From Blastococcus sp. CT_GayMR19 (lineage in GTDB: Bacteria > Actinomycetota > Actinomycetes > Mycobacteriales > Geodermatophilaceae): a DNA stretch of 64,000 bases. The DNA lies in NCBI RefSeq assembly GCF_004570385.1, contig NZ_SPQL01000001.1, forward strand, positions 434,001 through 498,000. The letters are read 5' to 3'. The position numbers and the translations under genes are program-made. Every line of letters begins with the position of its first letter. Within the stretch, counting starts at the first letter, position 1. Below the pieces are notes generated by a model, which was given only the letters and a program-made list of their open reading frames with translations, was not told the DNA's origin and searched no databases. This document shows positions 17,995-49,758 of the stretch, one piece after another.

Positions 17995-19749
17995 CTACCG
18001 CAGGCGGCGGGTGTTGTCCGGCAGCCGGGCGGTGACGCCCTGCCGGTCGAGCCACTCCATGAGCGGCACGGCCACCCGGCGGCTGGTTCCCCAGGCCTGC
18101 CGCGCCTGGCTCAGCGTGAAGGGTTGCGCGACGTCGGCCAGCCGGGCGCGGGCCTCTCCCTCGATCCCCGGCGCGAGGTAGACCCCCTCCGCGATCCGCA
18201 GCAGCTGCCCGCTGCGCACGGCGGCCCCCAGCTCGCGCACGCCCAGCCCGGCGGCGGTCAGGTCGCCGGCCTCGGGTGCGGCGAACGGGTCCGCGGCCAG
18301 TCGGGCACGGACGCCGTCCACCGCCCGCTGCACCGCCGGGGGCAGGTCGGCCGAACCGTCGACGACGCGCCCCTCCCGCAGCTGCAGGGGCGGCCGGACC
18401 ACGGCGGTCAGCAGCTCGGTGTCCGGCAGCTCGAGGACCCGACGCACCACCTCGGCCGGCGGCCCCGGTTCCAGCGGATGCGCCTTCCGGTAGGCCGCCA
18501 CGGCGCGGGGCAGCCGCGCGGCCAGCCCGTCGGCCAGGCCCGGGGCCACGAGCCACGGTCCGTGCACCGTGGCGCCCTCCGGCACCGGCCAGCCCATCGC
18601 CGCGAAGTCGTCGGCACGGACCACCCGACGGCGGGTGAGGTCCGCCGCGGCGCCGGCCAGCAGCGTGGGCCGGGCCGCGAGCTCGGCGGCCCGCTGCCGG
18701 GCGGCTCCCCGGCGACGCAGCTCGGGCGGATCGACGTCCCGCACGTCGGCACCGAGCACGCGACGGTTCCCGGGGTCGCGGAGGAGGAGCCGGTCACCGA
18801 TCCGCACGGGCAGCGGGGACGCCAGCCGCAGCCGGAGCACCGCGCCGTCCAGGGGACGCAGCCTCGCGCCCACGGTGGCCGATCCGACGTGCACGACCGC
18901 CTCGGCCGGCAGTGACTCCTCCGGCCCCGCGGCGAGGGTGACGTCGAGCAGCGAGGTGCGGCGGAACGCCGCGGGGGTGAGCAGCGCGTCGCCCCGGGAC
19001 AACTCCTCGAGCGCCACGCCCCGCAGGTTCAGCGCCACCCGCGCCGTCGCGGCGGCCCGCTCGACCGGCTCGCCGAGCGAGTGCATCCCCCGCACGCCCA
19101 CCTCGCGATCGCCGAGGAGGAGGCGGTCGCCCGTGGCCACGGTCCCGGCGGCGAGGGTGCCGGTGACGACGGTGCCGGCGCCCCGGATCGTGAAGGCCCG
19201 GTCGATCCACAGCCGCACCGGCGCATCGGCGTCGGCGGTGGGCAGGCCGGCCAGCAGTATCTCCAGGGCCTCGGCCAGTTCCGGCAGCCCGGCGCCGGTG
19301 AGCGCGCTGACCGCGACACCGGGCACGTCGCCCATCGAGGTCCCGGTCAGCCGCTCGTGGACGTCGGCGAGCACCGGGGCGGGATCGGCGATATCGGCCT
19401 TGGTCACCGCCACGAGCGCGTGCCGGACGCCCAGGGCGTCGAGGACGGCGACGTGTTCCGCCGTCTGCGCCGACCAGCCGTCGTCGGCCGCGACCACGAG
19501 CAGCGCGGCGGGCACAGAGCCCACCCCGGCCAGCATGTTGCCGACGAACCGTTCGTGACCGGGGACGTCGACGACCGCGAGCCGCCGGCCCGACGGCAGC
19601 GTCGTCCAGGCGAACCCGAGGTCGATCGTGAGGCCCCGGCGGCGCTCCTCCGCCCAGCGGTCGGGCTCCATGCCGGTGAGCGCGCGGACCAGCGCGGACT
19701 TGCCGTGGTCGACGTGGCCGGCGGTGGCGAGGACGTCCATGCCGGTCAC
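17995..19749 (-). CDS. selB: Selenocysteine-specific translation elongation factor SelB
   Basis: 584-aa GTPase that carries Sec-tRNA-Sec to the ribosome at a recoded stop codon next to a SECIS hairpin. The GTPase motifs are clear: GHVDHGKS at 11-18, DVPGH at 61-65 and TKAD at 116-119. They are followed by EF-Tu-like beta domains and C-terminal winged-helix repeats that read the SECIS (last one ending [17 protein letters not shown]). The GTG start overlaps the selA stop (GTGA). The gene ends CTG CGG TAG: its own stop is the codon that the local tRNA-Sec would read, so termination here must depend on absence of a SECIS. Confidence 0.97.
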
Positions 19750-21053
19750 GGAGAGGCGCAGTCCAGCACCGCGACGGCGAGGTCCTCGTCGGACGACGGC
19801 GGCAGGCTGCGCAGGTTCAGCAGCGTGCGGTCGCCCTCCAGGTAGCCGACGACCGGCGGGGCGCCCTGCCGCAGGCGCTCGGCGAACGACGGCGGCAGCG
19901 ACACCGCGGCGCTCGGCAGGGGCTGCTCCGGCGCCCCTCCCCCGCCCACCCGCGCGTCCGCGTCGACGGCGACCGCGTCGATGCCGGCCTCGGCGAACCG
20001 GGCGGCGAGCGCGCGGGCCCGTGCGCGGAGTCCCTCGAGGTCGGCGGCGAGCATCTCCTGCACCGGCGGCAGCGGACCGCGCAGCGTGGCCTCCAGCGCG
20101 GCGAGGGTCGTCTTGTCCACCCGCAGCGCCCGGTAGAGCGGGTGCCGGCGCAGCCGCTGCACCAGGTCGGTGCGCCCGAGCACCAGACCCGCCTGCGGAC
20201 CGCCGAGCAGCTTGTCCCCGCTGGCCAGCACGAGGTCGGCACCGGCTTCCAGCGTGCTCTGCAGGTCCGGCTCGTCCGGCAGGGTCGGATGCGGGCGGAG
20301 CAGACCCGAGCCGACGTCGGCGATCAGCGGGACGCCCGTGCCGGCCAGCGCCGCGGCGAGCTCACCCACCTCGACCGCCCGGGTGAACCCGCGGACCACG
20401 AAGTTCGACGGGTGCACCTTGAGCACCGCTCCGGTGTCCGGCCCGAGGGCGCCCCGGTAGTCGGCGAGGGTGACCCGGTTCGTCGTCCCCACCTCGCGCA
20501 GCCGCGCGCCGGTCGCACCGAGCAGCTCGGGGATCCGGAACCCGTCGCCGATCTCGACCAGCTCACCGCGGGCCAGCACCAGCTCCCGCCCGGCGCCCAG
20601 TGCGGTCGCGACCAGGGCGAGGGCAGCGGCGCAGTTGTTGACCACGATCGCGGCCTCGGCCGCCGGGACGGCGGCGACCAACGCGGCGATCGCCGCCTCC
20701 CCGCGCGGGCCGCGGCGGCCGGTCCCGAGGTCCAGCTCGACGTCGGTGGTGCCGCTGGCCGCGGCGACGGCCTCGACGGCGGCTTCGGACAGCGGCGCAC
20801 GGCCGAGGTTGGTGTGCACGAGGACGCCCGTGGCGTTGAGGACCGGCCGGAGGCTGCCCGCGGTCGTGGGCAGGGACGCGAGGACGGCGTCCACGGCGTC
20901 GGGGGGCGCGACCTCGCCGTCGCGGATCCGCTGCTGCACGCGTCGGACGGCGCCCTTGACCAGGCCGCGACCCAGCCGCTCGCCGGCCGCGGCCAGCTGC
21001 GGGTCGGCGAGGAGGGTGTCGGTGCGCGGCACCTGCCGGCGGGGATCGGTCAT
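19746..21053 (-). CDS. selA: L-seryl-tRNA(Sec) selenium transferase
   Basis: 435-aa PLP enzyme that converts Ser-tRNA-Sec to Sec-tRNA-Sec using selenophosphate. The PLP-binding lysine is Lys281 in [14 protein letters not shown]. Other family landmarks are [33 protein letters not shown] and [13 protein letters not shown]. The N-terminal tRNA-binding segment is complete. It is 29 nt downstream of the tRNA-Sec gene and overlaps selB, so tRNA, selA and selB may be one transcription unit. Confidence 0.97.
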
Positions 21054-21082: not shown

Positions 21083-21178
21083 TGGCGGAGGCGGACGGGA
21101 ATCGAACCCGCCTGACCGAGCTACTCGGCCACGTCGGCTTTAGAGGCCGCGGGGGTCACCAGACACCCTGACGCCTCC
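21083..21178 (-). tRNA. selC: tRNA-Sec with CUA anticodon (reads UAG)
   Basis: 96 nt including an encoded CCA (21083-21085) and discriminator G. The acceptor stem has seven perfect pairs (GGAGGCG with CGCCTCC) and a U/C eighth position. The D arm is extended with a UGGU tetraloop, as in bacterial tRNA-Sec. The long variable arm is a seven-pair hairpin (GGCCGAG, loop TAG, CTCGGTC). The T arm is standard (GCGGG TTCGATT CCCGT). The anticodon loop, at 21145-21139, is CUCUAAA: C32, U33, then CUA, then A37 A38. The usual tRNA-Sec loop is CUUCAAA (UCA). The neighbouring selA, selB and selD confirm identity. Known precedent: UAG-reading tRNA-Sec was reported from Geodermatophilus and Blastococcus (Mukai et al. 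2016, recalled, not looked up). Confidence 0.93.

Positions 21179-21869: not shown

Positions 21870-21873
<4 letters not shown>
21241..21873 (+). CDS. WYL-domain protein without a helix-turn-helix
   Basis: 210-aa protein. The C-terminal half is a WYL domain (RRRVLIVRYRDGKG, then LLAKSGRHWFLVAWCRERDAMRWFREDRI), the ligand- or nucleic-acid-sensing module of YafY/PafBC-type regulators. The N-terminus (TLAPEEAAAVAVALAA, then ALEKVLEAL) matches the linker that normally follows the DNA-binding domain, but no HTH precedes it: the tRNA-Sec gene begins 63 nt upstream. It overlaps selD by GTGA, so the two are co-translated. It might act as a regulator of selenium use without direct DNA binding, or be a shortened relic. 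The last 50 residues are Pro/Ser-rich. Confidence 0.8.
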
Positions 21874-22877
<1,004 letters not shown>

Positions 22878-48504: not shown

Positions 48505-49758
48505 TCAGCGGGTGTGACCGTTGCCGGTCACGACGTACGTCGTGGAGGTCAGCTCGGGCAGGCCGAGGGGCCCGCGCGCATGCAGCTTCTGGGTGGAGAT
48601 GCCGATCTCGGCGCCGAAACCGAACTCGCCACCGTCGGTGAACCGGGTCGAGGCGTTGACCAGCACGGCGGCCGCGTCGACACCGGCGGTGAAGTCGGCG
48701 ATCGCGGTCGCGGAGTCGGTGACGATCGCCTCGCTGTGGCCGCTCCCCCACCGCGCGATGTGCTCCAGCGCGGCCGGCAGGTCATCGACCACGCGCACGG
48801 CCATGTCCATCGACAGGTACTCCGTCGCCCAGTCCTCATCGGTCGCCGGGACGACGGCGTCGTGCGCGGACCGCGAGGCGTCGTCCCCGTGCAGGGTCAC
48901 GCCCGCGTCGGCCAGGGCGGCGAGCAGCCGGGGCAGGAAGGGGACGTCGCGGTGCACGAGCAGCGTCTCGGCGGAGTTGCACACGCTCACGCGGTGGGTC
49001 TTGGAGTTGAGCACGATCGCCTCGGCCATCGCGGGGTCGGCGGAGGCGTCGACGTAGACGTGGCAGTTGCCGACCCCGGTCTCGATCACCGGCACGGTCG
49101 CCTCGCGCACGACCCGCTCGATCAGCGACGCCCCACCTCGTGGGATGACGACGTCGACCACGCCGCGGGCGCCCAGCAGCTCCCCCACCGATGCGCGGTC
49201 GGCCGGCAGCAGCTCGACGAAGCCCTCCGGCAGGCCGGCCTTCGTCCCCGCCTCGGTCAGGACGGCGACCAGGGCGGTGTTGGTGCCGAACGCCGACGCC
49301 GAGCCCCGCAGCAGCGCCGCGTTCCCGCTCTTCAGGCACAGCCCGGTCGCGTCGACGGTGACGTTGGGCCGGGCCTCGTAGACGATCCCCACGACGCCCA
49401 TCGGCACCCGCACCTGGCGCAGCTGCAGGCCGGTGGCCAGCCGGGAGCCGCGGACGACGTCGCCCACCGGGTCGGGCAGGGCGATCAGCTGGCGGAGCGC
49501 CTCGGCAACCCCGGCCACGCGGGCGGCGTCCAGGCGGAGCCGGTCGAGCACGGACTCGGGCGTTCCCGCGGCAGCGGCGGCCTCGACGTCGGCGGCGTTG
49601 GCGGCCAGCACCTCCTCGGTGCGCTCGACCAGCGCGTCGGCCATCGCCGCGAGTGCGGCGTCCTTGGTGTCGGTGGGCAGGGTGCGCAGCACCCGGGCGG
49701 CCGCCCGCGCGCGCAGCGCGGCGGCACCGATCAGCGGCAGGTCTGCGACGTCGGACAC
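48505..49758 (-). CDS. proA: Glutamate-5-semialdehyde dehydrogenase
   Basis: 417-aa NADPH-dependent enzyme of proline synthesis that reduces gamma-glutamyl phosphate. The catalytic Cys is in [13 protein letters not shown]. Other landmarks are [20 protein letters not shown] and [12 protein letters not shown], and the C-terminus [23 protein letters not shown] 49758 is chosen because homology begins there; upstream codons are low-complexity. Its partner proB is about 2 kb upstream, separated by def and a marR module. Confidence 0.95.

Follow-up and report, generated by a model that had tools for sequence, protein, structure and literature searches.

The tRNA gene beside selA in this stretch of a Blastococcus genome raises the question of which amino acid a tRNA with the anticodon CUA delivers here, and at which UAG codons. 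ARAGORN calls the anticodon cta at exactly 21083-21178 on the minus strand and prints the name tRNA-Pyl, presumably on account of the anticodon; the sequence-only reading had taken the gene for a selenocysteine (Sec) tRNA that makes UAG the Sec codon. The ARAGORN label for 21083-21178 is a likely source of wrong annotation.

The tRNA gene and its neighbors

The features around the gene lie in the window, that is, the whole 64 kb stretch of DNA that was analyzed:

21083..21178, minus strand: tRNA-Sec gene (selC) with anticodon CUA and encoded CCA (ARAGORN, there named tRNA-Pyl; Rfam RF01852, 66.7 bits at 21178-21087)
21141..21143, minus strand: anticodon CUA, which pairs with UAG (sequence reading; position from ARAGORN and the Rfam alignment)
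21083..21086, minus strand: discriminator G at 21086 and encoded CCA at 21085-21083 (sequence reading)
19746..21053, minus strand: selA, L-seryl-tRNA(Sec) selenium transferase, 435 aa (Pfam SelA PF03841, 332.9 bits, and Se-cys_synth_N)
17995..19749, minus strand: selB, Sec-specific elongation factor, 584 aa, ending in a TAG stop codon (Pfam GTP_EFTU, SelB beta-barrel and SelB-wing_3)
21870..22877, plus strand: selD, selenophosphate synthase, 335 aa (Pfam AIRS and AIRS_C)

The check with a tRNA-Sec covariance model that the earlier reading had proposed came out in its favor: RF01852 matches with 66.7 bits (Infernal/Rfam; gathering score 47, E 2.1e-11), the alignment covers model positions 1-91 of 91, i.e., the full length, and no other Rfam match within the window reaches its gathering threshold. 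The anticodon loop is CUCUAAA with CUA at 21143-21141 (tRNA positions 34-36), as had been claimed and as the sequence, ARAGORN and the Rfam alignment agree. A long variable arm, the UGGU D loop, the G discriminator and the encoded CCA are all present; the one detail that did not hold is the seven-pair variable arm, which has eight pairs (one of them G-U) in the minimum-energy fold, the Rfam model pairing five. The fold has a z-score of -3.85, and none of 200 shuffles folds as well. The gene departs from the usual tRNA-Sec anticodon, UCA; however, the CUA form is already in print (PMC5330540, in its available text), and the anticodon therefore does not exclude the gene from the tRNA-Sec family. 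The presence of a tRNA-Sec gene with a CUA anticodon at 21083-21178 is a real observation, and we regard it as confirmed.

The genes that UAG-Sec recoding of the Geodermatophilaceae kind calls for, selA, selB and selD, are all found around the tRNA, with a WYL-domain gene between the tRNA gene and selD. The tRNA-Sec gene, selA and selD are also grouped together in most of the relatives that we looked at.

UAG codons at selenocysteine sites

The host genome was searched for the formate dehydrogenase (FDH), UGSC and AhpC families and with a model of the hairpin described below. Among five matches to the molybdopterin oxidoreductase family (PF00384), one has a single internal TAG (contig C39, TAG at 49101, L036). 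It reads ENQARI-TAG-HSSTVPGLGASFG, its frame stays open for 904 codons after the TAG and ends in TGA, and Pfam finds in it Fe4S4, molybdopterin and dinucleotide-binding domains, a set that we take to be that of the FDH alpha subunit. In the one UGSC gene found, TAG takes the place of the U in the UGSC motif (VAVGD-TAG-GSC), and one of ten AhpC-TSA matches contains one TAG (FYVFDFGGL-TAG-TPEL). UAG thus stands in frame at the Sec position, once per gene, in all three host selenoprotein genes found (FDH, UGSC and AhpC-like), as the claim of a UAG Sec codon predicts; the outcome that had been named as speaking against it, selenoprotein genes that all use TGA, is not what the host genome contains. 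This selenoproteome may be incomplete because three Sec families were searched and the hairpin model misses the AhpC type. Standard translation cuts such genes at the UAG, which matters for annotation.

In FDH and UGSC genes a seven-pair stem begins 11 nt after the Sec codon and a five-base loop (RGUNU) 18 nt after it, the loop being GGUCU in FDH and AGUCU, AGUGU or AGUUU in UGSC. We aligned the 21 distinct hairpins (15 from FDH and 6 from UGSC), leaving out a chance hit of the regular expression (L111:2845) and also the AhpC-type hairpins, because their spacing differs. In this alignment 98.6% of 147 cells are paired, compared to 34.7-56.5% when the partner is slid, and six of the seven pairs show changes on both sides, as a SECIS element would in FDH and UGSC alike, with the reservation that the hairpins were picked by a pattern requiring the loop, which favors structure. 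Third codon positions account for much of the change in the FDH hairpin, and FDH and UGSC appear to be unrelated proteins in this region; conservation of the protein alone would therefore not explain the hairpin. Taken singly, an FDH hairpin does not stand out from its shuffles (z -1.17; 29 of the 200 fold as well).

In the host genome the hairpin covariance model scores 58.1 bits at FDH and 47.1 bits at UGSC, and beyond these two it found no further SECIS-bearing gene above 22.2 bits, the score of its next match. The model misses the AhpC-like hairpin, which has a different spacing (16 nt) and a 4-nt loop and was seen in two genomes only. In the UCA genomes G038 and G039 its best match (25.3 bits) is within the FDH gene and begins at model position 9, leaving out the TAG, and in the UCA genome G023 it reaches 18.5 bits over positions 1-36. 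Two other CUA genomes gave weaker matches (26.1 bits in G026 and 25.8 bits in G009).

Anticodon and codon were compared across 61 genomes, 37 of them from the host's family, the Geodermatophilaceae, and 24 from elsewhere in the same order. At a loose E-value the tRNA-Sec search gave matches in all 61 genomes but also in all 14 control genomes, in five of them over the cut-off; this tally therefore says little, and only matches of at least 64 bits were used. The score list has a gap from 64 bits down to 52 bits, and matches of 40-52 bits, including one of 48.7 bits in the host genome, were taken for putative tRNA-Ser. The family's 37 genomes contain 39 tRNA-Sec genes of at least 64 bits: 33 have CUA (in 32 genomes) and six have UCA (in six genomes, five with UCA alone and one, G029, with both). 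All 15 tRNA-Sec genes of at least 69 bits from other families have UCA.

The codons follow the same division. The FDH search gave 49 matches in 45 genomes, of which 34 have TAG (30 genomes, all with a CUA tRNA), 13 have TGA, and two, without a stop, have TGC. All 13 TGA genes come from outside the host's family; 12 of their 13 genomes have a UCA tRNA-Sec, and the other, G049 (82% complete), has no tRNA-Sec match above 48.7 bits. An FDH match is absent in two of the 32 CUA genomes, G004 (81% complete) and G015 (76% complete). The five UCA-only genomes of the family have no FDH match at E 1e-60 either, so that the contrast between UAG and UGA in FDH is one between families. UGSC gave 19 matches in 15 genomes (14 TAG, one TGA, four without a stop), and AhpC-like genes with the stop at the checked position were found in two of the 61 genomes, both with TAG. 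Across FDH, UGSC and AhpC-like genes in the 61 genomes, all 50 TAG sites are in genomes with a CUA tRNA, and all 14 TGA sites are in genomes in which the search found no CUA tRNA. Sorting the genomes by anticodon is not fully clean, since G029 carries both forms.

Several further observations concern these genes. The rare codon AUA precedes the Sec-UAG in 34 of 34 FDH genes (the host gene, G000:C39, L036, and loci L076-L104, L109-L112 and L294), and 23 of the 29 genes looked at have a second AUA 35 codons upstream of the UAG; AUC makes up 365 of the 369 Ile codons in 21 window ORFs. In the 13 UGA forms of FDH (L279-L291) the codon before the UGA is AUU (12 genes) or AUA (one). GAT precedes the UAG in ten of 14 UGSC genes and accounts for 35 of 749 Asp codons; the AhpC-like genes have CTC and TAC before the UAG. 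Four of the 14 UAG-UGSC loci (the host's, G000:C41, L114, and L137, L141 and L142) encode an in-frame fusion of the UGSC domain with a flavoprotein that resembles thioredoxin reductase and carries a CAGC motif; Pfam finds Pyr_redox_2 and UGSC in the host copy.

Probable recoding of UAG and its alternatives

We consider it very probable that the host inserts Sec at SECIS-linked UAG codons by means of the CUA tRNA-Sec, other UAGs being stops read by RF1. This explanation builds on the tRNA, its anticodon, the machinery genes, the matching UAG codons, the conserved hairpins and the presence of RF1, all read in the DNA. The anticodon would have changed from UCA to CUA. SerRS would charge the tRNA with serine, SelA would convert the serine to Sec on the tRNA with selenophosphate from SelD, and SelB would bring the Sec-tRNA to ribosomes halted at a UAG with a SECIS hairpin after it. 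Charging by SerRS, conversion by SelA and delivery by SelB are the established bacterial Sec pathway; for this host we infer charging, Sec insertion and the efficiency of insertion from the genes. The sites served would be those in the FDH alpha subunit, the UGSC-family protein and the AhpC-like peroxiredoxin, and UAG elsewhere would stay a stop read by RF1.

The anticodon and the ARAGORN label would also fit a pyrrolysine tRNA. We rejected this interpretation, which we regard as extremely improbable: Rfam places the gene in tRNA-Sec, the sole family above threshold in the window, the gene adjoins selA, selB and selD, and the UAG sites are at the Sec positions of known selenoprotein families. 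In addition, the search of the host genome for PylS, which used the C-terminal model only, found nothing above the cut-off of 178 bits, the matches scoring 26.5 and 23.3 bits. Just as hard to credit is the view that the TAG genes are pseudogenes and that the tRNA-Sec gene is broken or its anticodon wrong through an error of sequencing or assembly. Slips in an anticodon are possible in single genomes, but none was seen here: the CTCTAAA loop recurs in many separate assemblies, 32 of the 37 family genomes, the remaining five having CTTCAAA (UCA), and TAG stands at 34 FDH and 14 UGSC sites. This recurrence refutes an error and upholds the earlier statement that the anticodon is not a sequencing slip.

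A further alternative is that UAG means Sec throughout the genome, without need of a SECIS element; in its favor, no tRNA-Sec match in the host genome other than the CUA gene scores above 48.7 bits. However, the genome encodes both RF1 (L265, motif PVT) and RF2 (L266, motif SPF), the motifs being those that we take to mark the two factors. By a crude ORF filter, 33 of 38 window ORFs end in TGA, five in TAG and none in TAA, which makes UAG a rarer stop than UGA in the window but one still in use; selB is among the five, its TAG lying four residues past the last winged-helix match. The hairpins that follow Sec-UAGs, in which both partners of pairs have changed, also argue against a genome-wide change of meaning, which we consider highly improbable. 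Given that the genome has RF1 and that ordinary ORFs still end in UAG, the data point to SECIS-dependent recoding and not to reassignment of every UAG: of the "natural stop-codon reassignment" in the sequence-only reading, UAG read as Sec stands, and the word reassignment is too strong. Most likely, UAG is recoded only where a SECIS hairpin follows. One idea is that a Sec codon placed on the rarer stop would interfere less with ordinary termination.

Origin, odd genomes and known systems

A tree of SelA from 47 genomes sets the 32 CUA genomes on one side of a branch with SH-aLRT 100 and leaves the family's UCA genomes outside it; the tree was made with a quick method after rows of 280 residues or fewer were dropped, and it has 19 weak branches among its 44 inner ones, six long end branches and an outgroup row (G040) on the family's side. 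On this tree the CUA form has one origin. From CTTCAAA to CTCTAAA two anticodon bases must change; an intermediate with just one of the changes would read UAA or UGG, UAA being the likelier. The stem pair beside the anticodon loop differs as well (GGT..ACC versus GGC..GCC).

A pattern scan of genome contigs, which finds only YTCTAAA loops with a strict T arm and so misses other CUA forms, gave 90 stretches with a CUA tRNA-Sec. Among the 80 listed, 77 are titled as the host's family or its genera; the genera in the list are Geodermatophilus, Blastococcus, Modestobacter, Klenkia, Trujillonella and Goekera. The three listed candidates for a CUA tRNA-Sec outside the family are titled Bacillus sp. 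AZ43 (marked unverified), a Jatrophihabitans MAG and a Frankiales MAG. The sel genes of these three share 77-93% identity with those of the window (a 22-residue selB stub in L156 aside), compared to 56-72% for the sel genes of two UCA genomes of the family. This suggests that the three are family members or stray contigs, and we rejected them as cases from outside. The Bacillus record (L156, SPQJ01000003.1) has a selA 91% and a selD 93% identical to the window's, and its name looks wrong.

The genome with both forms, G029, has a UCA tRNA-Sec of 81.8 bits (C17:1173-1263; L001, L038) and a CUA copy (C11:15836-15927; L037) that adjoins its one selA. The first 14 kb of the contig with the UCA copy, in which this copy lies, match transposases and have a GC content per 2 kb of 0.61-0.72, compared to means of 0.75-0.78 in the rest of the contig and in C11. 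That G029 reads two different stop codons as Sec with one SelA is conceivable from its genes but improbable. The FDH and UGSC searches found no UGA selenoprotein gene in it, both genes having TAG; it is therefore just as possible that the UCA gene was acquired and is a stray, or that it is a contaminant. Within the first 6.2 kb of the UCA contig, a scan for frames interrupted by TGA gave nothing convincing, and an exact-pattern search for a donor over viral contigs gave no match. Plasmid matches to this contig (15 of 77 records listed) are to transposase or IS genes among the named rows, one also to a hypothetical protein. Another genome, G007, carries a pair of CUA tRNA-Sec genes whose variable arms differ (C25:205-296, L039, and C168, L040). 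One of the two is on a contig of 5.6 kb that has a selD of its own, and G007 is perhaps a metagenome assembly of mixed strains.

Sec-UAG in Geodermatophilaceae is already in print. PMC5330540, in its available text, describes a CUA tRNA-Sec in three genomes of the family, credits the FDH and UGSC selenoproteins with UAG-Sec to Mukai et al. 2016, and gives an AhpC with Sec-TAG in Blastococcus saxobsidens DD2. The earlier statement that UAG-Sec has been reported for Geodermatophilus and Blastococcus is thus borne out for Blastococcus, Geodermatophilus not being named in that text. The kind is therefore known, and the host is a further member: family, anticodon and three selenoprotein families (FDH, UGSC and AhpC) are common to both, and the present case differs not in kind but in offering a further genome, a wider census and a covariation test of the hairpin. 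In the available part of a review (PMC10778597), some species are said to use UAG, UAA or sense codons for Sec. With the standard bacterial UGA-Sec system (UCA tRNA-Sec, SelA, SelB and SelD) the host shares the genes, a similar order around the tRNA and the Sec site, and the UGA-Sec FDH genes of the order have a like hairpin, its loop mostly GGUCU or AGUCU; here, however, the anticodon is CUA, the codon UAG, and the competing release factor RF1 instead of RF2. The pyrrolysine system likewise has a CUA tRNA that reads UAG, whereas here the tRNA family is another, no PylS is found above the cut-off, and a hairpin follows the codon. A pyrrolysine survey (PMC3639795, in its available part) has Geodermatophilus obscurus in a table and excluded organisms without both a UAG-reading tRNA and pylS.

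To this the present analysis adds the census, the one origin on the SelA tree, the AUA before the UAG of FDH, the reductase-UGSC fusion and the genome with CUA and UCA forms. In the available literature texts, through searches not aimed at every item, we found no mention of the AUA codon, the G029 pair, the fusion, the G007 pair, L156 or the ARAGORN label; we do not claim that they are absent from print.

The host is a clean natural example of a tRNA and its codon shifting jointly from UGA to UAG; the SelA tree shows a single origin, and most ordinary genes of the host genome end in UGA (33 of the 38 crudely called window ORFs). The census provides material to test how a signal of the genetic code can be moved and what moves along with it, such as the AUA codon, and it also bears on whether such a move eases competition with termination.
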